The notes under the pieces: generated by a model
The model's database searches: none
What the model was told of the DNA's origin: nothing
Seen by the model: the letters and a program-made list of their open reading frames with translations, nothing else
NCBI RefSeq assembly: GCF_025725665.1
Contig: NZ_CP107009.1
Coordinates: forward strand, 124,001-188,000
Direction of reading: 5' to 3'
Length of the DNA: 64,000 nucleotides
From: Halomonas sp. LR3S48
Lineage (GTDB): Bacteria > Pseudomonadota > Gammaproteobacteria > Pseudomonadales > Halomonadaceae
Shown: positions 50,952-60,372 of the stretch, one piece after another
How the letters are laid out: each line of letters starts with the position of its first letter
How positions within the stretch are numbered: the stretch's first letter is position 1
Translations under genes and position numbers: made by a program

Positions 50952-52952
50952 ATGGTGGCGGAACTCGGAAACTTTGCCCTCGTCCTGGCGCTGTGCCTGG
51001 CGCTGGCCCAGAGCGTGCTACCGTTGCTGGGCGCCCAGCTCGACGATGCCCGCCTGATGCGCAGCGGCCGCTTCCTGGCCACCGGCCAGTTCGTCTTCCT
51101 GGCGCTCTCGTTTGCCGTGCTGACCTGGGCCTTCGTCGTCAGTGATTTCACAGTTCGCTACGTGGCCGGCCACTCGAGCCTCGAGCAGCCGCTGATCTAC
51201 CGGATCACCGCTGTGTGGGGCGGGCACGAGGGTTCGTTGCTGCTGTGGGTGTTCCTGCTGGGCGCGTGGGGAGCCGCCGTGGCACTGTTCAGCCGGTCGC
51301 TGCCCCGCGACATGCTGGCCCGGGTGCTGGCCGTGCTGGGCATGGTCGGCGTGGGCTTCATCGCCTTCACGCTGTTCACTTCCAACCCCTTCGAGCGCGT
51401 CATTCCCGGGCCTGCGGACGGACGCGGCATGAACCCGCTGCTGCAGGATCCGGGCATGATCCTGCATCCGCCGTTGCTCTACATGGGCTACGTGGGCACT
51501 GCGGTGATCTTCGCCTTCGCCATTGGCGCACTGCTCGGTGGCCGGCTCGATGCTGCCTGGGCGCGCTGGTCGCGGCCCTGGACCACGGTGGCCTGGGTCT
51601 TCCTTACCCTGGGCATCGCCGTAGGCGCCTGGTGGGCCTACTACGAGCTGGGCTGGGGCGGCTGGTGGTTCTGGGATCCGGTGGAGAACGCCTCCTTCCT
51701 GCCCTGGCTCACCGCCACGGCGCTGATCCATTCGCTGGCGGTGACCGAGAAGCGCGGCGGTTTCAAGGTCTGGACCCTGATGCTGGCCATCCTCACCTTT
51801 GCGCTGACCGTACTCGGGGCCTTCATCGTCCGCTCCGGCGTGATCACCTCGGTGCACGCCTTCGCCACCGACCCAGAGCGCGGCGTATTCCTGCTCGGCA
51901 TGCTGAGCCTGACCCTGCTCGGCGCGCTGACGGTCTACGCCTGGCGGGCGCCGAAGGTGGGGCTTGGCGGCGCTTTCGCCGGGTATTCGCGCGAGTCGCT
52001 GCTGCTGGCCAACAACGTGTTGCTGACGGTGGCCTGTACGGCGGTGTTCATCGGCACCCTCTATCCGCTGGCGCTGGATGCCTTCGGCCTGGGCAAGATC
52101 TCGGTGGGCCCGCCCTACTTCGATAGTGTCTTCGCCCCGCTGATGCTGCCGCTGTTGCTGCTTGTCGGCCTCGGCCCGGCGGTGGCCTGGAAGCAGGCAA
52201 ATCCGGGGGAGACCTTCCGCCAGCTGCGCTGGGCACTCCTTGTCAGTGTGGTGGCCGGTGGGCTGTGGCCACTCGCGCTTGGCGCCTGGCATCCCATGAC
52301 CGCGCTTTCACTGATGCTGGCCGTCTGGATCGTGCTGACGGCGCTGCTCGACGTGCGCAAGCGGCTGGGTTCCGCGCGGCAGCCGTGGTCGACCCGGCTC
52401 AGGCGGGTCCTGCGCCCGAGCTTTCTCGGTATGCACCTGGCTCACGTGGGGCTGGCACTGGTGGTGGTGGCCATCGCCATGGTCAATACCTACGAGGTGG
52501 AGCGCGACGTGCGACTGGCCCCGGGCGAAAGCGCCTCGGCGGCAGGTTTCGACTTCGCCCTGCTGCGCATGGAGAGTGTACGCGGCCTCAACTGGGAGGC
52601 CGATCAGGCGGTGGTCGTGGTGACCCGCGAGGGTCGCCCGGTCGCCTTGCTGCAGCCCCAGCGGCGCTACTACGACACCCACGCCCAGACGCCCATGAAC
52701 CAAGCCTCGCTGCATCGTGCCGTTACTCGCGACGTCTACGTCTCGCTGGGTGAACGGCTGGAGGACGATGCCTGGAGTTTCCGGCTCTACTACAAGCCCT
52801 ACATGGCCTGGATGTGGTTCGGCGCTATCCTGCTTGCCTTGGGTGGCCTGCTGGCGGCCGCCGACAAGCGCTACCGCCTGGCCTCCAATCGCACGCCCCG
52901 CATGCAGTGGCAGCCCTCCGCCAGCCACCCCTTGGAGGTAGCAAGTCAATGA
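50952..52952 (+). CDS. ccmF: Cytochrome c haem lyase subunit CcmF
   Basis: CcmF attaches haem to apocytochromes in System I maturation in the inner membrane. The 666-residue polytopic protein has the WWD haem-binding motif WGGWWFWDPVENASFLPWL near 230-250, surrounding helices and periplasmic His residues as in the family. The start with GGGAGGTG upstream is the obvious one. It is the first gene of ccmF-G-H-I. The ccmABCDE genes that normally precede it are absent; ppiA on the other strand lies upstream. The set may be complete elsewhere in the genome or may be a dedicated lyase of the NrfEFG kind. Confidence 0.95.
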   Translation: MVAELGNFALVLALCLALAQSVLPLLGAQLDDARLMRSGRFLATGQFVFLALSFAVLTWAFVVSDFTVRYVAGHSSLEQPLIYRITAVWGGHEGSLLLWVFLLGAWGAAVALFSRSLPRDMLARVLAVLGMVGVGFIAFTLFTSNPFERVIPGPADGRGMNPLLQDPGMILHPPLLYMGYVGTAVIFAFAIGALLGGRLDAAWARWSRPWTTVAWVFLTLGIAVGAWWAYYELGWGGWWFWDPVENASFLPWLTATALIHSLAVTEKRGGFKVWTLMLAILTFALTVLGAFIVRSGVITSVHAFATDPERGVFLLGMLSLTLLGALTVYAWRAPKVGLGGAFAGYSRESLLLANNVLLTVACTAVFIGTLYPLALDAFGLGKISVGPPYFDSVFAPLMLPLLLLVGLGPAVAWKQANPGETFRQLRWALLVSVVAGGLWPLALGAWHPMTALSLMLAVWIVLTALLDVRKRLGSARQPWSTRLRRVLRPSFLGMHLAHVGLALVVVAIAMVNTYEVERDVRLAPGESASAAGFDFALLRMESVRGLNWEADQAVVVVTREGRPVALLQPQRRYYDTHAQTPMNQASLHRAVTRDVYVSLGERLEDDAWSFRLYYKPYMAWMWFGAILLALGGLLAAADKRYRLASNRTPRMQWQPSASHPLEVASQ

Positions 52953-53512
52953 AACTGCGCATGCTGATAACGCTGGCGGCCACGGCCGCCCTGCTGGGGC
53001 TGCTGTTCGTTGGCCTGGGCCTGAACAGCCGCGACCTGCCCTCGCCGCTGGTCGGCAAGCCGGCACCGCCGTTCACGTTGGAGGCGCTGGAGGATGCCAG
53101 CGTCACCCTGACCGAGCAGGACTTCATCGGCGAGGTGGCACTGGTCAACGTCTGGGCCACCTGGTGCAGTACCTGTCGCTCCGAGAAGCCGCTGCTGATG
53201 GAACTCGCACGCGGCGGCATACCGATTCATGCCTTCAACTACCGCGACGAGCGCGACTCGGCGCTGCGCTACCTCAGCGTCAGCGACAACCCCTACCGCA
53301 CCATTGCCTACGACCCCAAGGGCGACGCCGGCATCGACTGGGGCGTCTACGCCACGCCGGAAACCTATGTGCTCGATGCCCAGGGGGTGATCCGCTACAA
53401 GCGCATCGGCCCGCTCACGCGCCAGCTGCTGCTCGACGAGGTGCTGCCACTGGTGGAAAAGCTGCGCGATGAGCAGCGCAGAAGCGAGGGCAGGAGGGTG
53501 GCAAGCTCATGA
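52949..53512 (+). CDS. ccmG: Thiol:disulfide oxidoreductase CcmG/DsbE
   Basis: CcmG reduces the apocytochrome cysteines or CcmH before haem ligation. The 187-residue protein has an N-terminal membrane anchor (1-22) and a periplasmic thioredoxin fold. The active site is NVWATWCSTCRSE, with the acidic and cis-Pro sections GVYATPETYVLD typical of this family. It overlaps ccmF (ATGA) and is overlapped by ccmH. Confidence 0.95.
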   Translation: MKLRMLITLAATAALLGLLFVGLGLNSRDLPSPLVGKPAPPFTLEALEDASVTLTEQDFIGEVALVNVWATWCSTCRSEKPLLMELARGGIPIHAFNYRDERDSALRYLSVSDNPYRTIAYDPKGDAGIDWGVYATPETYVLDAQGVIRYKRIGPLTRQLLLDEVLPLVEKLRDEQRRSEGRRVASS

Positions 53513-54000
53513 AGAGACTCTTGCTCAACACCCTGCTTGGCTTGCCTCTCTGGCTGGCGGCGGGGCTTGCCATGGCACTGGCCATCGGCCAGCCACTGGA
53601 GTTCGACAGCACGGCCCAGCAGCGCCAGTACGACACCCTGGTGCGCGAGCTGCGCTGCACGGTGTGCCAGAGCGAGACCATCCATGAATCCAACGCCGAG
53701 CTCGCCGCCGACATGCGTCGCCGGGTCTACGACATGACCCTGGCCGGGCACGATGCCGAGGCGATCGTCGAGTTTCTGGTACAGCGCTACGGCGACTACG
53801 TGCGCTATCGCCCGCCGTTGCAGGCCAATACCGCGCTGCTGTGGGCCAGCCCCTTCCTGCTGCTGCTGGGCGGCGGCTTCATCTGGTGGCGTATCGTCGC
53901 GGGTCGCCGGCGCATGGCGCAGTGTCCCGAGTTCAGCGCACGGGAGCGGGCCATGCTCGATCGATTTCACCATGGCGATGACCCCGGGAGGTCTCGATGA
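53509..54000 (+). CDS. ccmH: Cytochrome c maturation protein CcmH (CcmL domain)
   Basis: This 163-residue anchored protein has a signal/anchor at the N-terminus, the active motif LRCTVCQSE (CXXC) near residue 50 and a membrane helix near 110-130. It presents reduced cysteines of apocytochromes to CcmF. Only the CcmL-type part is present; the TPR part is encoded by the following ccmI, as in pseudomonads rather than in E. coli. Overlaps both neighbours by four bases. Confidence 0.95.
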   Translation: MKRLLLNTLLGLPLWLAAGLAMALAIGQPLEFDSTAQQRQYDTLVRELRCTVCQSETIHESNAELAADMRRRVYDMTLAGHDAEAIVEFLVQRYGDYVRYRPPLQANTALLWASPFLLLLGGGFIWWRIVAGRRRMAQCPEFSARERAMLDRFHHGDDPGRSR

Positions 54001-54926
54001 ACGGAACGTTCCTGCTACTGGCCATGGGCCTCTGTCTCGTAGCGCTGGGCTTCGTGGTCACCCCGCTGTTGCGCGCGCCACGCTGCGAGGAGAACCCGTC
54101 ACGACGAGCGACCAATCTGCTCGTGCATCGTGACCGGCTGCGCGAACTCGAACAGGACATGGCGGCGGGTTTTTTGACCGGCGCCCAGTACGACAACGCC
54201 CTGGCCGACCTCGAGCGCGAGCTGCTCGACAGCGGCGCCGTCGAGCCTACCCATAGACAGGCTGCGAGGGGGCCGGGCTCGCGTCGGGCACCGTTCGTGG
54301 CCGCCTGCGCGAGCCTGGCGCTGCTGCCGTTCCTTGCCACCGGTCTTTACCTCACGGTGGGTCATGCCGAGGAAGTCTTCGCCACCCCGCTGCCGTCGGG
54401 CACGCCGACACCGGGCGAGGCCGCGGGCGAGCCTCGTTCCGGGGCCGACCTGAAGCGCGAGTTCCAGCATCTGGCGCAGCAACTACAGGGGCGCCTGGCG
54501 CAGGATCCGGCCCAACTAGGGAACTGGACACTGCTGAGCCGCACCCTGGTGTTCCTCGACGACCTGCCGGCAGCGGAGCGCGCCTTTCGCGAGGCGATGC
54601 GCCACGGTGGCGACCAGGACCCCGACCTGCTAACGCGATATGCCGACGCCCTCGCCGAGCGCCAGGGCGAACTGGCCGGCGAGCCCCAACGCCTGATCGA
54701 GCGCGCCCTGGTGCTCGATCCCGATCACATCCAGGCGCTATGGCTGGCCGGGACCCTGGCGCTACAGCAGAACTCGCCGGACGAAGCGCGAGGCCATTGG
54801 CAGCGGCTGCTGGTACTGCTGCCGCCGGAATCCCCCGAGGCCGAGGTGATCCGCGGCAATCTCGGCCAGCTTGACCAGGCCGCCGGCAGCCCCCTCGAAA
54901 GGGTGTCGGCAAGGAGCGAGACATGA
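53997..54926 (+). CDS. ccmI: Cytochrome c maturation protein CcmI (TPR)
   Basis: CcmI is the apocytochrome c chaperone of System I. The 309-residue protein has two membrane helices (2-25 and about 96-118) and a periplasmic TPR region (about 165-300), with NWTLLSRTLVFLDDLPAAERAFREA and IQALWLAGTLALQQNSPDEARGHWQRL. It binds the C-terminus of apocytochromes. The end overlaps the regulator gene start (ATGA), so the regulator is in the same transcription unit. Confidence 0.93.
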   Translation: MNGTFLLLAMGLCLVALGFVVTPLLRAPRCEENPSRRATNLLVHRDRLRELEQDMAAGFLTGAQYDNALADLERELLDSGAVEPTHRQAARGPGSRRAPFVAACASLALLPFLATGLYLTVGHAEEVFATPLPSGTPTPGEAAGEPRSGADLKREFQHLAQQLQGRLAQDPAQLGNWTLLSRTLVFLDDLPAAERAFREAMRHGGDQDPDLLTRYADALAERQGELAGEPQRLIERALVLDPDHIQALWLAGTLALQQNSPDEARGHWQRLLVLLPPESPEAEVIRGNLGQLDQAAGSPLERVSARSET

Positions 54927-55687
54927 ACAAGACGTTGAGTCGTGAGGCCTTGCAGGCCGTGCGCCAGGTGCCGCTGTTCGCCGGGCTCGAGGATGAGACC
55001 CTGGCGCTGCTCACCGGCGGCGCCGTGGAGCGCAGCTACCGTCGCGGTGCGCTGCTGTTCAGCAAGGGCGAACCGGCGGACCGCTTCTACGTGGTGCTCG
55101 GCGGCTGGATCAAGCTGTTCCGCGAAAGTCCCGACGGCAACGAATGCATGGTGGGGCTGTTCACCCGCGGTGAATCCTTTGCCGAGGCGGCGATGTTCGA
55201 CCGGCTGGGGTTTCCGGTCAACGCCGCGGTGGCCGAGGATGCCCGGCTGCTGGTGTTTCCTGCCGAGCATTTCCTCACCACCCTGGAGCGCAACCACGGC
55301 CTGGCGCTCAATATGCTCGCCAATCTCTCCGGCATGCTGCGCTCGCTGGTGCGCCAGCTCGACCAGCTCACGCTGCAGCCCACCTACCAGCGCCTGGCGG
55401 CCTTCATCGTCTCGCTATGCCCCGAGGGTACCAACCAGGCCACCGTCTGCCTGCCCTGCGACAAGCTGCTGATCGCCGGCCGCCTGGGCATGAAGCCGGA
55501 GAGCTTCTCGCGGGCCATGGCGCGGCTGCGTGAGGTCGGTGTCAGCTGCGAGCGCAACTGCGTGCACGTCGAGGACATTACCGTCCTCCGGCGCTTCGCC
55601 AATTCCGCCGAGGAGAAGGCGCTCTCGCCACTGCCGTGCGCGGCACCGAATTCGCCGCATGCGACCGCGCCACGCCCCTGTCGCTAG
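54923..55687 (+). CDS. Crp/Fnr-family regulator (Dnr-like)
   Basis: This 254-residue regulator has an N-terminal cyclic-nucleotide-binding-like domain (FAGLEDETLALLTGGAVE to FPAEHFLTTLE) and a C-terminal winged helix (LLIAGRLGMKPESFSRAMARLREVGV). The N-terminus has no cysteine cluster, so it is not an oxygen-sensing FNR but fits the Dnr group that senses NO through haem. Matching palindromes lie upstream of ccmF and nirS. Its start overlaps ccmI and a hairpin follows. DNA recognition helix residues SFSRAM are consistent with an FNR-like target (TTGAC). Dnr assignment is inferred from context. Confidence 0.85.
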   Translation: MNKTLSREALQAVRQVPLFAGLEDETLALLTGGAVERSYRRGALLFSKGEPADRFYVVLGGWIKLFRESPDGNECMVGLFTRGESFAEAAMFDRLGFPVNAAVAEDARLLVFPAEHFLTTLERNHGLALNMLANLSGMLRSLVRQLDQLTLQPTYQRLAAFIVSLCPEGTNQATVCLPCDKLLIAGRLGMKPESFSRAMARLREVGVSCERNCVHVEDITVLRRFANSAEEKALSPLPCAAPNSPHATAPRPCR

Positions 55688-55708
55688 CCTCACCGCTTTT
55701 CTTCCTCT

Positions 55709-55737
55709 CGAAACGGCCCGCTCGGCGGGCCGTTTCG
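55709..55737 (+). terminator. Terminator after the Crp/Fnr regulator
   Basis: CGAAACGGCCCGC/GCGGGCCGTTTCG forms a perfect 13-bp stem with a TCG loop, 21 bases past the stop. The T-rich run TTTCTTTTT follows 13 bases later. Confidence 0.75.
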
Positions 55738-55766
55738 CGCCGGGCCGCGATTTCTTTTTCCCTCCT

Positions 55767-55780
55767 CTGACATAAGTCAA
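55767..55780 (+). promoter_or_regulatory. FNR/DNR-like box 1 upstream of the nirS-like gene
   Basis: CTGAC-ATAA-GTCAA; the reverse strand reads TTGAC-TTAT-GTCAG. It matches the TTGAC-N4-GTCAA form at nine of ten positions. Confidence 0.65.
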
Positions 55781-55796
55781 CTCCTGGATGCATCAA

Positions 55797-55810
55797 TTGA
55801 CAGTGGTCAA
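55797..55810 (+). promoter_or_regulatory. Perfect FNR/DNR box 2 upstream of the nirS-like gene
   Basis: TTGAC-AGTG-GTCAA is a perfect palindrome of the Fnr/Dnr consensus. Its centre lies 30 bases from box 1 and about 146 bases before the start codon. Confidence 0.8.
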
Positions 55811-55949
55811 GTGAGGCGAAAGGCAAAGTTGCTACTAATGGCGACAGGTGGGGGGTGGCTTGAGGCCATGGTCGCTGAGCACGCAGAAGAACAGGTCATG
55901 CCGGGCACCCGCCAGCCACACCCGAAGGGGAAACCAAGCGAGGCACGAT

Positions 55950-57560
55950 ATGCAGATGAGAGCTTTGAGCAAGGGGATCTTCGCCCTCAGCTTCCCGCTG
56001 ACCGCCATGGTGGGCATGGCCCACGCCGCGGCCCCGGAGTTGACCGCCGAGGAGCAGGAACGCGCCAACACCATCTATTTCCAGCGCTGCGCCGGCTGCC
56101 ACGGCACCACACGCAACGGCGCCACCGGTCCGAACCTGCTGCCCGACACCACCCAGGAGCTGGGCCAGCGCCGTCTGGAGAGCATCATCACGCTGGGTAC
56201 CGAAGGCGGCATGAACAACTTCGATGGCATCCTCTCCGCGGATGACATCACGCTGATCTCCAAGTACATCCAGCACGATCCGGTCGATCCGCCCGAGATG
56301 TCGCTGGCCGACATGAAGGAGCGCTGGCAGGTCTTCATCGCGCCGGAAGACCTGCCCACCGAGCCCCAGCACGATCTGAACTGGGAAAACTTCATGGTCA
56401 CCATCCTGCGTGACCGCGGCGCCATGGGCATCATCGACGCCGACACCAAGGAACTGGTCACCGAGGTCGAGACCGGCTATGCGGTGCACGTGGCCAAGGA
56501 GAGTTCCGACGGCCGTTTCTGGTACGTCCAGGGCCGTGACGGCCGTCTCTCCAAGATCGACCTGTGGATGGACCCGCCCCAGGTCACCGCCGAGGTCTTC
56601 ATCGGCTACGACGCGCGCGACGTGGCGGTCTCACACTACGGCGAGTGGAAGGACAAGTACGTTATCGGCGGCTCCTACTGGCCGCCGCACTTCGTGATCG
56701 CCGACGCCGAGACCATGGAGCCGCTGAAGGTGGTCTCCACCCGCAGCTACGACACCCAGGGCAACTTCCGCAACGAGGCCCGCGTCGCGGCGCTCTACAA
56801 CACCCCGCACGCGCCCACCTTCCTGGTCAACGTCAAGGAGTCCGGCCAGGTCTGGCAGGTCGACTACAGCGACATCGACAACCTGCGCATCGACCAGATG
56901 GAGACCGCCGAATTCCTGCACGACGGCTTCTTCGACCCCACCGGCCGCTACTTCCAGATCGCCGCCAACATGAGCGACAAGATGGTGTTCATCGACACCG
57001 AGACGCGCAAGTTGGTCAGCATGCTGGAGACCGGCACCAAGCCCCACCCGGGCCCGGGCGCCAACTGGATCGACCCCGAGTGCGGCCCCGTGGCCGGCAC
57101 CACCCACCTGGGCGAAGGCCTGTTGACCTTCTGGGGCAACGATCCGGAAGGGCATCCCGACCAGGCCTGGCAGATCTGCGACCAGATCGAGACCGACGGA
57201 CCGGGGCTCTTCGTGCGTACCCACCCCGATTCCGACAACGTCTGGATCGACCAGGCCATGCACCCCGAGCCCGACGTCAACCAGTGGGTCATGGTCATGA
57301 ACAAGGAGACCCGCGAGCTGACGCCGATCCATGTCGCCGACCGTCCGTTGGAGCATGACGCCGTGGCGGTGCACATGGAGTACGACCAGACCGGTACCGA
57401 GGTGTGGGTCTCCATCTGGGCGCGTGGCGACGGCCACCAGAACGACGGCGCCATCGTCGTCTTCGACGACAAGACGCTGGAAGTGAAGGCGGTCGTCGAG
57501 GGCCTCAACACGCCGACCGGAAAGTTCAACGTCTACAACCGCAGGCATCACGTCGGCTGA
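55950..57560 (+). CDS. nirS: Cytochrome cd1-type nitrite reductase homologue
   Basis: This 536-residue periplasmic protein has a signal peptide (cleavage near MAHA-AAPE), a single c-haem motif CAGCH (47-51) and an eight-bladed d1 propeller with ETGYAVHV, RDGRLSKIDLWMDPP, YWPPHFVIAD, LVNVKESGQV and TPTGKFNVYN. NirS reduces nitrite to nitric oxide. The stretch that in well-known NirS proteins reads HPEPRVAAI is here RNEARVAAL, so a distal-pocket histidine may be absent (from memory). FLHDG is retained. The next gene encodes a NapC-type multihaem protein rather than the usual nir haem-d1 genes. GAGG precedes the ATG. It could be an active NirS or a relative with another role. Confidence 0.8.
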   Translation: MQMRALSKGIFALSFPLTAMVGMAHAAAPELTAEEQERANTIYFQRCAGCHGTTRNGATGPNLLPDTTQELGQRRLESIITLGTEGGMNNFDGILSADDITLISKYIQHDPVDPPEMSLADMKERWQVFIAPEDLPTEPQHDLNWENFMVTILRDRGAMGIIDADTKELVTEVETGYAVHVAKESSDGRFWYVQGRDGRLSKIDLWMDPPQVTAEVFIGYDARDVAVSHYGEWKDKYVIGGSYWPPHFVIADAETMEPLKVVSTRSYDTQGNFRNEARVAALYNTPHAPTFLVNVKESGQVWQVDYSDIDNLRIDQMETAEFLHDGFFDPTGRYFQIAANMSDKMVFIDTETRKLVSMLETGTKPHPGPGANWIDPECGPVAGTTHLGEGLLTFWGNDPEGHPDQAWQICDQIETDGPGLFVRTHPDSDNVWIDQAMHPEPDVNQWVMVMNKETRELTPIHVADRPLEHDAVAVHMEYDQTGTEVWVSIWARGDGHQNDGAIVVFDDKTLEVKAVVEGLNTPTGKFNVYNRRHHVG

Positions 57561-57604
57561 TCGCCGCAGCCGCTACCGCCGGGGGGGTCCTACGAGGCTA
57601 CCCC

Positions 57605-57654
57605 GGCCCCTTCTCCAGCCGCTTCGGCATCGCGAAGTGGCTGGAGAAGGGGCC
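57605..57654 (+). other. Long intercistronic hairpin after the nirS-like gene
   Basis: GGCCCCTTCTCCAGCC and GGCTGGAGAAGGGGCC form a perfect 16-bp stem. The inner arms CTTCG/CGAAG extend it. It lacks a T-run and is followed by the next gene 77 bases on. It may act as a partial terminator or protect the nirS transcript end, giving unequal expression. Confidence 0.6.
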
Positions 57655-57730
57655 GACACAACAACCATAAGCAGGGCGGCAGCAGTTCGAGGGCAAGCAC
57701 TCGCGTCATGACATTTTGGGAGTAAGGATC

Positions 57731-59407
57731 ATGGGGGAGCGTCCACGCAATTGGCGCAAGATTACCATCATGGGGGCATCGCTGGGTGCCGCCGTGTTCT
57801 TTTTCGTTGCCGGCATCATCTTCTGGGGCGGCTTCAATACCGTGATGGAAGCCACCAACAGCTACACGTTCTGCAGCACCTCCTGCCATGAGATGAGCTG
57901 GGTCCACGAGGAGTATCAGGATCGCCCGCACTACCAGAACGCCACCGGCGTGGGGGCGGCCTGCTCGGATTGCCACGTGCCCGATGCCTGGGGGCCCAAG
58001 ATGATTCGCAAGATCCAGGCCAGCCGCGAGGTGTGGCACTGGATGCTGGGAACGATCGATACCCAGGAGGAATTCGAGGCCAAGCGTATCCACCTGGCCG
58101 AGAACGTGTGGCGCTCGATGCTGCGTACCGACTCGCGCGAATGTCGCAACTGTCACGACTGGTCGGCAATGGATCTGGAACAGCAGGCCGCTCGCGCCTC
58201 GCGCGAGCACGCCCGAGCCTTCGAGCAGGGCATGACCTGCATCGAATGTCACCAGGGCATCGCTCACCAGTTGCCCGAAGCGTGGGACGAATCGCCGGTA
58301 TGGGCGGGTCGCTTCGAAGCTGTCAGCGAGGCGGAGGGTGCCGAGGAGGCCCCCGGCGTGCCGCTGGAGAGCGAGGATCTCGGCGAGGCCGCCACGGTCG
58401 AGGAGAACCTGGCCGCGTCGCTTGACTGGGACGCGGTGCCGGCCATCGACCTGACGCTCTTCCTGCCCGGCCAGGCCTCCATCGAATGGATCCAGGACGG
58501 CAGCGAGCATGGCGGCGGTCGCGCCTTCAGCTTCGGCGATCGCTGCATCTGGTGTCACCAGGGTGAAGAGGCGGACATCGGCGCGCTGGCCGTGGCCGGC
58601 GAGAAGATCGAGACCTTCGACCTGGGCGACAAGCGCGGCCACGTGCCGATGAGCGTCAGGGCCGCCTTCGACGACGACTACCTCTATATGCAGTTCCAGT
58701 GGGAGGCCGGCGAGCATGCGCCGTTGCCCTTCGTCGAAGGCGGCGTGATGGACCCGGACAATCCCTTCAAGCTGACCGTGAGCCTCTCCGACGAGCGCGT
58801 CGACATGGCCGACCGGGCGGGCTGCTGGGCGAGTTGCCATCATGATTCCGCCTACATGCCGGATGCCCCGGAAGCCGAAGCGCTGGCGGCGAGCGAGCTT
58901 GCCGAGCGGCTCGACCTGATGAGCGGCAACGGCGTCACCAAGTACCTCACCGAGAGCCGCACCGAGATCGAGATAAAAGGGCGTCGTGGCGCGGCGCGCG
59001 GCGGCTGGGACAAGCTCAAGGAGGAAGCCGAGATCCAGGAGCTCCTCGACGCCGGCGTCTATGTCGACCTGGCGCGCTACAACAGCGGCGACGGTTCGGT
59101 CGAGTCGGGCTACATCCTCGACGAGCGCCACTTCAGCGACAGCCAGGCCATCGCGTTCAGCGCCGCAGAGCAGGACGGGGTATGGACCGCCTATCTGACC
59201 CGTGCGCTCAAGACCGGCACGGAAGGCGACAAGCCGCTCGACCTGGGGCGCCTCTACAGCCTCAACGTGGCGCTGCACGACGACCATGCCGACTCGCGCT
59301 TCCACCACGTCTCCTTCCAGTACGGTCTGGCCTTCGGCGCCGAGACGCCGGAAGAGACCTTCGGCGAAGACATGGTGGAGATCAATGCAACGCGCGTCAC
59401 CCGCTGA
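57731..59407 (+). CDS. NapC/NirT-type multihaem cytochrome fused to an ethylbenzene-dehydrogenase-like haem domain
   Basis: This 558-residue protein has an N-terminal membrane anchor (12-34) followed by a NapC/NirT tetrahaem region with CSTSCH (48-53, CX3CH), CSDCH (78-82), CRNCH (138-142) and CIECH (170-174). The C-terminal half resembles the haem-binding domain of ethylbenzene dehydrogenase-type proteins, with CIWCH (272-276) and CWASCH (365-370, CX3CH). The likely count is six haems. NapC-type proteins oxidise quinol and pass electrons to periplasmic partners, so it could supply the nirS-like protein or the cupredoxin. AAGGATC precedes the ATG. The EBDH-like assignment is from residue pattern. 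Confidence 0.8.
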   Translation: MGERPRNWRKITIMGASLGAAVFFFVAGIIFWGGFNTVMEATNSYTFCSTSCHEMSWVHEEYQDRPHYQNATGVGAACSDCHVPDAWGPKMIRKIQASREVWHWMLGTIDTQEEFEAKRIHLAENVWRSMLRTDSRECRNCHDWSAMDLEQQAARASREHARAFEQGMTCIECHQGIAHQLPEAWDESPVWAGRFEAVSEAEGAEEAPGVPLESEDLGEAATVEENLAASLDWDAVPAIDLTLFLPGQASIEWIQDGSEHGGGRAFSFGDRCIWCHQGEEADIGALAVAGEKIETFDLGDKRGHVPMSVRAAFDDDYLYMQFQWEAGEHAPLPFVEGGVMDPDNPFKLTVSLSDERVDMADRAGCWASCHHDSAYMPDAPEAEALAASELAERLDLMSGNGVTKYLTESRTEIEIKGRRGAARGGWDKLKEEAEIQELLDAGVYVDLARYNSGDGSVESGYILDERHFSDSQAIAFSAAEQDGVWTAYLTRALKTGTEGDKPLDLGRLYSLNVALHDDHADSRFHHVSFQYGLAFGAETPEETFGEDMVEINATRVTR

Positions 59408-59432
59408 CGCGCCGACCGGGGAGGAGACGCTC

Positions 59433-59777
59433 ATGAGACAGAGGATCGGACTGACATTCGGCGCGACCGCCCTGGCCACCCTGCTGCTGGGCGGGGTGGT
59501 GCAGGCCGGCGATGACGTGATCGAAGTGGAGATGCGCGACTACGGCTTTCACCCCGCCGAGCTCGAGGTAAAAGTCGGTACCACGGTGCGCTGGGTCAAT
59601 GGCGAGAAGCGCACCAGTCACGACGTCTTCTTCGCCGATGAGGAGTTCGGTTCGGAGCGGCTGTTTCCCGAGGAGAGCTGGGAGCGCACCTTCGGCGAGC
59701 CCGGCAGCTATCCTTATCACTGCCGCCCTCATGAAAACCGCGACATGCGTGGCGTGATCGAGGTCGTGGGAGAGTGA
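59433..59777 (+). CDS. Exported cupredoxin (plastocyanin/amicyanin-like)
   Basis: This 114-residue blue-copper protein has a signal peptide (1-25). The ligands are H63 (TSHDVFF), C97, H100 and M105 in YHCRPHENRDM, the usual His-Cys-His-Met set of type 1 copper. It probably carries single electrons in the periplasm. Position between the multihaem cytochrome and an exported protein suggests that it links the quinol-oxidising cytochrome to the cd1-type or nitrous oxide reductase. GGGGAGGAGA lies before the ATG, 25 bases after the previous stop. Confidence 0.88.
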   Translation: MRQRIGLTFGATALATLLLGGVVQAGDDVIEVEMRDYGFHPAELEVKVGTTVRWVNGEKRTSHDVFFADEEFGSERLFPEESWERTFGEPGSYPYHCRPHENRDMRGVIEVVGE

Positions 59778-59814
59778 CCACCAAGCGCAGCAAGAGTGAC
59801 CTGGAGGAAGGTTC

Positions 59815-60372
59815 ATGATGACGATGCTTCGACCCGCAACGCTGTGTGGTGGGCTGCTGACCACGCTGGTGCTGGCCTGGGCGGGTAGTACCGCGGCGGC
59901 CCAGGGACCTAGCGGCTATCGCAGCGCCGAGTTCGGCATGTCCTCCGAGGAGGTGATGGCCGTTCTCGAGCGCGATGGCGTGATCGAGGTCGAGGTGCAG
60001 CAGACCGAGGAGGAAGACCTGATCGTCGACGGCGTGCTGCGGGCACCTGACGAGCCGGCGACGGACCTGCGCTATGTGTTCCCCGCTGGCAGTGACCAAC
60101 TGGCGCTGGTGGTGGCCTTTCATCCCGAGGTGGAGGACTTCCAGGCCGTGAAGGGGCAGCTCGAGGACAAGTATGGCCAGCCGTGGGAGGAGGAGATGAC
60201 CGAATGGTGGTTCGAGCAGCTCAAGGCGGGCATGCCGCAGGAGCCAAGCAGCCTGACCGTATGGGGCGGTGATGGCAGCGAGGATCGCGAACGCGGCCGC
60301 TTCGTTCGCCTGTGGTCGTTCGAGGATTACCTCACGGTGGAATATCTCGACACGCAGCTGTTCCCTAGATGA
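59815..60372 (+). CDS. Hypothetical exported protein of the respiratory operon
   Basis: This 185-residue protein has a signal peptide (1-29, cleavage near TAAA-QGPS) and an acidic mature part. SGYRSAEFGMSSEEVMAVLERDGV is followed by strand-rich sections with LRYVFPAGSDQLALVVAF and YGQPWEEEMTEWWF. No family was recognised. GGAGGAAGG precedes the ATG. It is the last plus-strand gene before the convergent nos-end genes and overlaps them by eight bases. A periplasmic accessory role is suggested by position only. Confidence 0.7.
   Translation: MMTMLRPATLCGGLLTTLVLAWAGSTAAAQGPSGYRSAEFGMSSEEVMAVLERDGVIEVEVQQTEEEDLIVDGVLRAPDEPATDLRYVFPAGSDQLALVVAFHPEVEDFQAVKGQLEDKYGQPWEEEMTEWWFEQLKAGMPQEPSSLTVWGGDGSEDRERGRFVRLWSFEDYLTVEYLDTQLFPR

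Follow-up and report, generated by a model that had tools for sequence, protein, structure and literature searches.

Analysis of a 64 kb stretch of Halomonas sp. LR3S48 (C1:124001–188000 of a 4.69-Mb single-contig genome; hereafter the window) revealed a set of + strand genes that includes a cytochrome cd1 nitrite reductase gene, nirS, and a gene for a protein in which a NapC/NirT-type cytochrome is joined to an ethylbenzene dehydrogenase (EBDH)-like haem domain, designated here NirTB. The genes are in the order ccmF-ccmG-ccmH-ccmI-fnr, the ends of which overlap, followed by nirS, the NapC-EBDH gene, a cupredoxin gene and a gene for a protein of unknown family. A first-pass annotation, made from the sequence alone, had listed these genes, and every gene that it named was found on the + strand. 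Two of its gene starts were corrected, that of nirS to the ATG at 55950 (the GTG at 55848 is the mechanical start of the open reading frame only) and that of the cupredoxin gene to 59433.

The nirS gene (55950–57560, + strand; PF02239 and PF13442) has a signal-peptide-like start, and residues 27–535 of its product, almost the whole chain, matched the solved nitrite reductase 1bl9_A with an E value of 1.9e-146. This entry is from P. aeruginosa and has the same sequence as 1nir. The matches to 6rtd (listed as ‘Cytochrome c’ and presumably NirN; E 5.1e-51) and to the NirF structure 6tv2 (E 3.3e-17) were weaker. The N-terminal c-haem domain and the d1 propeller are both present at full length. FLHDG and KPHPG are conserved in the alignment, and the HDG and HPG within them presumably hold the active-site histidines. 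By these scores the protein groups with NirS and not with NirN or NirF, and haem-d1 biosynthesis genes are present in the genome. The first-pass label ‘cd1-type’ was right about a cytochrome c and cytochrome d1 protein, but this is a full NirS; an NirN-like or new cd1 enzyme was rejected because the match to the solved NirS was far better than that to 6rtd or NirF. Judged by its sequence, the gene is a bona fide, ordinary nirS, with a predicted activity from nitrite to NO.

The gene that follows (57731–59407, + strand) encodes a NapC/NirT N-terminal domain and an EB_dh domain in a single 558-aa frame. The N-terminal half matched PF03264 above its cut-off and has a membrane anchor and four c-haem motifs (CSTSCH, CSDCH, CRNCH and CIECH), the first of which is of the CX3CH type; its score with TIGR02161, 233.3 bits, was under the cut-off of 310.6. 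A profile match of this half to NrfH (2j7a_C) was found with an E value of 1.7e-5, and the fold tables, which barely tested this half, contained no NapC-family chain for it. The AlphaFold model, with a mean predicted local distance difference test score (pLDDT) of 70.8, is confident in the C-terminal half only, and the predicted anchor helix at residues 18–42 falls in a low-confidence region. The C-terminal half contains two haem motifs (CIWCH and CWASCH) and a PF09459 match and is encoded after nirS. Within it H260, M376, H516 and H525 are near invariant across 80 sequences and are candidate haem ligands. Its likeness to the EBDH gamma subunit is one of shared fold only: no gene for a molybdenum alpha or FeS beta subunit was present among the nine scanned genes, so a role for this half as part of a molybdenum enzyme was rejected here, and no alpha or beta partner was annotated among the neighbours in three Roseobacter-group loci. 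The protein is a NirT-NirB fusion, that is, the tetrahaem and dihaem cytochromes of Pseudomonas (Stutzerimonas) stutzeri nirSTB in one chain. The link to NirB was drawn from the annotation order in PMC5554334 (papers cited by PMC number are drawn on in excerpt) and from G056 and L117, rather than from the P. stutzeri NirB sequence; L-numbers denote loci from the contig scan described below and G-numbers sampled genomes. The ordinary NapC of this genome is encoded by a separate gene at C1:4282 kb and has CX2CH haem motifs. No relative was found in a viral collection.

A contig scan with an eight-sequence alignment gave at least 576 confirmed relatives, of which the best 80 were kept, so that the loci are biased towards close relatives. 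Together with three Roseobacter-group plasmids and the window these made 84 loci; a fourth full-length plasmid match (H3) lies outside the set. Typing of 83 of them (L116, with NapC alone at a contig end, was left out) gave 62 loci with the fused gene, 5 with a fused gene and a duplicated NirB, and 16 in which NapC and EBDH are split. The first-pass annotation had proposed to look for the gene order elsewhere and for its co-occurrence with haem-d1 genes, and both were found. Where at least 1.8 kb of upstream sequence was available, nirS lay directly upstream at 53/55 fused (the exceptions being L050 and L077), 5/5 duplicated and 6/13 split loci. Where 8 kb of sequence was available on both sides, two or more d1 genes were present within the locus in 23/38 fused, 1/2 duplicated and 2/5 split cases. 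The plastocyanin/azurin-type cupredoxin gene of the window (59433–59777, + strand; PF00127, E 1.4e-10; motif YHCRPHENRDM, with a type 1 copper loop of the form C-x2-H-x4-M) also recurs. Counted by the copper-loop pattern within 1.3 kb downstream, at loci with at least 0.7 kb of downstream sequence, a cupredoxin was encoded at 50/58 fused, 4/5 duplicated and 5/15 split loci.

In a FastTree tree of 83 tips (the typed loci minus L110 plus L117) the split forms cluster, except for L063, which pairs with the fused L077 beside them, and L087, the record of which has several broken frames. Several betaproteobacterial loci and G056 have an nirSTB-like arrangement, in which nirS is followed by unfused NapC and EBDH genes. 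The split pair of a Dechloromonas locus (L093:3516-11476) is accompanied by a type II DMSO-reductase-family enzyme and a chlorite dismutase, and the locus looks like a perchlorate island with PcrQ/PcrO. The duplicated forms (L086, L091, L097, L099 and L114) are NirTB proteins of ~940 aa with eight c-haem motifs and occupy three separate places in the tree; four further frames of 924–998 aa with two EBDH matches were found in the class sample (G141, G155, G274 and G373). No discussion of NirB duplications was found in the open-licence literature.

This class sample consisted of 321 evenly drawn genomes, in which NirS was called at E ≤1e-90 and the EBDH (NirB) domain at E ≤1e-20. The NirS matches formed two bands, one at 56–62% identity to the window NirS (20 genomes, its own included) and one at ≤49% (39 further genomes). 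The EBDH domain was present in 20/20 genomes of the first band and in 2/39 of those with the second band only (G056 and G151); these counts give the presence of the NirB domain and not the fusion state genome by genome. The difference between the bands has a Fisher p of 8e-14, uncorrected for relatedness. A tandem pair of nirS genes of the same lineage lies ahead of an EBDH gene in G275 (C24:22672-25955). An alternative would be that the NapC-EBDH protein serves another periplasmic reductase, such as Nap, and adjoins nirS through a shared denitrification island. The homologues NapO and PcrO do serve Nap and Pcr (PMC5845722), and L050, L077 and 7/13 split loci lack nirS directly upstream; the link to one NirS lineage and the separate NapC with CX2CH motifs speak against this alternative, which we consider very improbable.

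Haem-d1 genes do not adjoin nirS in the window, and the first-pass annotation had remarked on their absence. The remark holds for the neighbourhood within the window but not for the genome. A d1 cluster at C1:225.5–233.0 kb contains nirF, three NirDL-type genes confirmed with Pfam, nirJ, a nirE-type methylase gene and nirN, and a fourth NirDL-type frame was recognised by eye. A genome without d1 synthesis was therefore rejected, and the claim that the set is unusual for want of d1 genes fails, since d1 genes are in the same genome and adjoin the module in many relatives. A whole-genome search with the d1 profile found three strong genes (the window nirS, nirF and nirN); two other matches in the genome were weak (35.6 and 24.9 bits). 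The single NirS gene found in the genome is separated by ~44 kb from the downstream d1 genes. The d1 genes closely resemble their counterparts in the genus: NirF, NirN and NirJ share 86, 86 and 93% identity with the G036 proteins and 73, 66 and 82% with the G004 proteins. In both genomes another NirS (46 and 44% identical to the window NirS, respectively) is encoded inside the d1 cluster. G036 has both NirS types (C5:13470-15074 and 53253-54803), one with NirTB and one inside the d1 cluster, and is possibly an intermediate in the replacement of nirS. A likely history is that a nirS-nirTB module was gained and that the other nirS was then lost in the genome of the window.

A Dnr/Fnr-type box, TTGACAGTGGTCAA (55797–55810, not assigned to a strand), lies ~140 bp 5′ of the nirS ATG and is the only match to this pattern in 64 kb, against 0.07 expected. 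The same pattern precedes nirS in 11/11 sequences (the window, nine Billgrantia/Halomonas-group loci and L042), and five further boxes were found in the 72 kb of C1:186.0–258.0; two of these lie in the interval that separates the divergent nirF side from the first NirDL gene. The regulator gene (54923–55687, + strand; cNMP_binding and HTH_Crp_2) starts inside the end of ccmI. Its first-pass description as a Dnr-like regulator stands as to the Crp/Fnr family; the libraries gave no support for ‘Dnr-like’, the nearest model being FtrB, below cut-off, although a Dnr/Fnr-type box does precede nirS. The gap between nirS and nirTB (57561–57730, not assigned to a strand) contains an inverted repeat with perfect arms of 17 bp. 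In all six relatives in which this gap was readable it likewise has inverted repeats, of 9–19 bp and counted with no shuffle control, and a TCATGA palindrome was seen by eye 5′ of nirTB in most relatives.

Downstream of the cupredoxin gene, the protein encoded at 59815–60372 (+ strand) has a signal-peptide-like start, as judged by eye, and no match in Pfam, NCBIfam or PHROGs. It is also encoded at L037–L043, L067, L118, L122 and L124; among the loci examined, its pairing with the module is confined to Billgrantia/Halomonas, L042 and L043.

The set ahead of nirS comprises ccmF (50952–52952; Pfam CcmF_C, E 2.6e-113; TIGR00353 above cut-off), the second copy in the genome of a CcmF/NrfE-family haem lyase gene, the thioredoxin-like ccmG/dsbE (52949–53512; TIGR00385 above cut-off), ccmH (53509–54000; PF03918, E 1.1e-43), one of two in the genome, and ccmI, which encodes a TPR protein (53997–54926; TIGR03142 above cut-off), all on the + strand. 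The other ccm set is at C1:653–660 kb, where CcmF, CcmG and CcmH were identified with phmmer and frames for ccmA, ccmB, ccmC, ccmE and ccmI by eye. NrfEFG is a dedicated haem lyase and CcsA1 serves a CX15CH site. The window set resembles both in that a haem lyase paralogue (CcmF/H/I without ccmA-E) stands beside an unusual haem-binding substrate, and differs from them in that the motif is CX3CH and the link is one of co-occurrence only. In all loci that encode a NirB domain (83/83), the second haem site of this domain is CWxxCH, and thus CX3CH. At the first NirT site CX3CH was found in 8/84 loci (the window plus seven records from Billgrantia or Halomonas) and in 11/11 fused genomes of a genus sample. 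CcmF of the second type (at least 80% identity, the next best being 59%) was encoded by 11/11 genomes of that sample with the fusion and by 1/26 without it. The lone exception, G025, is 85% complete, and its contig stops in the fnr gene, beside the expected place of nirS. The two genes were on one contig, ~6 kb apart, in 10/11 genomes, and in G003 both were at contig ends. The ccmFGHI set and the fusion are one linked cassette, perhaps through one event.

There is roughly an even chance that ccmFGHI does no more than add capacity to the ordinary maturation machinery during anaerobic growth and has no dedicated substrate. Its parts look ordinary in Pfam and NCBIfam, and the NirB CX3CH site occurs also in relatives without an adjoining ccm set: where 6.5 kb of upstream sequence was available, ccmF was upstream in 7/45 fused loci, all of them Billgrantia/Halomonas or the window, and in 0/2 duplicated loci. 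Against mere added capacity, no ccmA-E genes were seen by eye among the reading frames beside the window set, and its CcmF is just 52% identical to the other copy (C1:656–658 kb). Furthermore, the second CcmF tracks the fusion and was encoded by 0/10 genomes that have only the other NirS type, and the second set is found together with a CX3CH motif at the first NirT haem. The association of ccmFGHI with CX3CH is confined to one clade, in which it may be a single event. L042 and L043, which are sister loci, have CX2CH at that NirT site, and L042 had no ccm match in the 4.5 kb upstream of nirS. In 5/11 split loci (L095, L107, L109, L110 and L111) the NapC-EBDH pair lies behind an apparent main ccm operon with no nirS nearby. 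A Sulfuricellaceae locus (L085:2-3633) has ccmH-ccmI directly 5′ of nirS, with NapC and EBDH as separate genes; its contig begins in ccmH, so the rest of its ccm set is outside view.

Gene content, kept order, co-occurrence, haem motifs, fold likeness and boxes, read with the published genetics of relatives, make it highly probable that the whole is explained as the nitrite-respiration module of a Halomonas/Billgrantia-type denitrifier, in which nirS comes with a dedicated electron feed. The NirT half, anchored in the membrane, would oxidise quinol, and electrons would pass over its four c-haems to the NirB half. This half has an EBDH-gamma fold and two c-haems, of which the final one occupies a CX3CH site. 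NirB would then reduce NirS directly or via the adjacent cupredoxin, which may act as a mobile link between them, and electrons on this path would not pass through bc1. The haem d1 that NirS needs would come from the nir cluster 44 kb off; boxes of this Dnr/Fnr type lie close to that cluster and may be used there, and ccmFGHI probably helps to mature the c-type cytochromes of the module. The first-pass proposal of a chain from quinol to a periplasmic oxidoreductase gains from the order being kept beyond this strain, from the link to one NirS lineage and from deletions in Azospira suillum, which demonstrated that PcrQ/PcrO carry electrons to perchlorate reductase and NapC/NapO to nitrate reductase (PMC5845722). 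As these pairs are homologous to NirT/NirB, transfer from quinol to NirT to NirB to NirS is the simplest reading. NirT is a tetrahaem and NirB a dihaem cytochrome, and nitrite reduction in P. stutzeri ZoBell requires NirT (PMC13086519). In P. stutzeri RCH2 the second gene after that for NirS is annotated as ethylbenzene dehydrogenase, and its fitness in a chromate table is close to that of NirS (PMC5554334). A cupredoxin fused to a cytochrome c domain is encoded directly after NirTB in G037 (L029:815-1441), which fits the carrier role. Frames at L101 and L106 matched both cupredoxin and NirC queries and may resemble this fusion.

Several observations count against such a dedicated feed. A cupredoxin is lacking at 8/58 fused loci and is thus not essential everywhere. 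An EBDH homologue was present in 7/262 class-sample genomes without NirS at E ≤1e-90, which, with L050 and L077, indicates other partners or places too. The inverted repeats in the gap could separate the expression of nirS and nirTB. For P. stutzeri, activation of NirS has been put forward as a further role of NirT (PMC13086519). NirTB might serve mainly in activation or maturation, keeping NirS in its fast reduced state, while the bulk of the electrons came from bc1 via cytochrome c or the cupredoxin. Literature cited by PMC13086519 proposes a catalytic activation of cd1 through NirT, and the cluster does encode a soluble carrier, the cupredoxin. Nevertheless, deletion of napC or napO in Azospira suillum ended growth on nitrate as sole acceptor (PMC5845722), as expected of a main electron route, and six conserved c-haem motifs suit a wire; we therefore regard activation as the main role as unlikely.

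Several known systems are close to this locus. It is nirSTB in kind: in P. stutzeri ZoBell and RCH2 nirS is likewise followed by genes for a NapC/NirT tetrahaem and an EBDH-like dihaem cytochrome (PMC5554334, PMC13086519). The locus differs in having NirT and NirB in one chain, a flanking cupredoxin and ccmFGHI-fnr, and d1 genes 44 kb off. The same fusion has been reported from the same group, in Halomonas sp. 2A (Li et al. 2018, cited in PMC13086519, 2026). The ‘unusual island’ of the first-pass annotation is a well-kept variant, but with an ordinary NirS as oxidoreductase and a known NirTB (PMC13086519) as the fusion. The Azospira suillum PcrQ/PcrO and NapC/NapO pairs likewise combine a NapC-family quinol dehydrogenase with an EBDH-gamma-like dihaem carrier, but are encoded by separate genes and serve other terminal reductases (PMC5845722). 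NirS of Chloroflexi has an extra cytochrome c and, in a few cases, an N-terminal cupredoxin, so that a copper carrier is tied to cd1 as here; there the copper domain is inside the NirS chain, and NirTB is not named in the excerpt (PMC8756737). The frequent cupredoxin partner, the co-travelling ccmFGHI and the CX3CH sites are features for which the literature searches found no discussion: neither cupredoxin nor ccm occurs in the text of PMC13086519, its excerpted parts make no mention of CX3CH, and no paper that joins nirTB with cupredoxin, ccmFGHI or CX3CH was found in the open-licence literature.

A bolder proposal, that this NirS lineage is obligately wired to the quinol pool via NirTB, so that two types of cd1 wiring can be read from nirS, and that ccmFGHI is a private lyase for the NirT CX3CH site in Billgrantia/Halomonas and thus defines a new class of System I substrate, is offered in its entirety as a tentative one that may well not hold. 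If true, the existence of a private lyase for such a site would widen knowledge of haem attachment. If the NirS lineage does predict the electron route, nirS surveys could tell quinol-direct from bc1-fed denitrifiers. NirTB has been named as a candidate cause of nitrite build-up (PMC13086519), a matter of relevance to N2O and to the treatment of wastewater.

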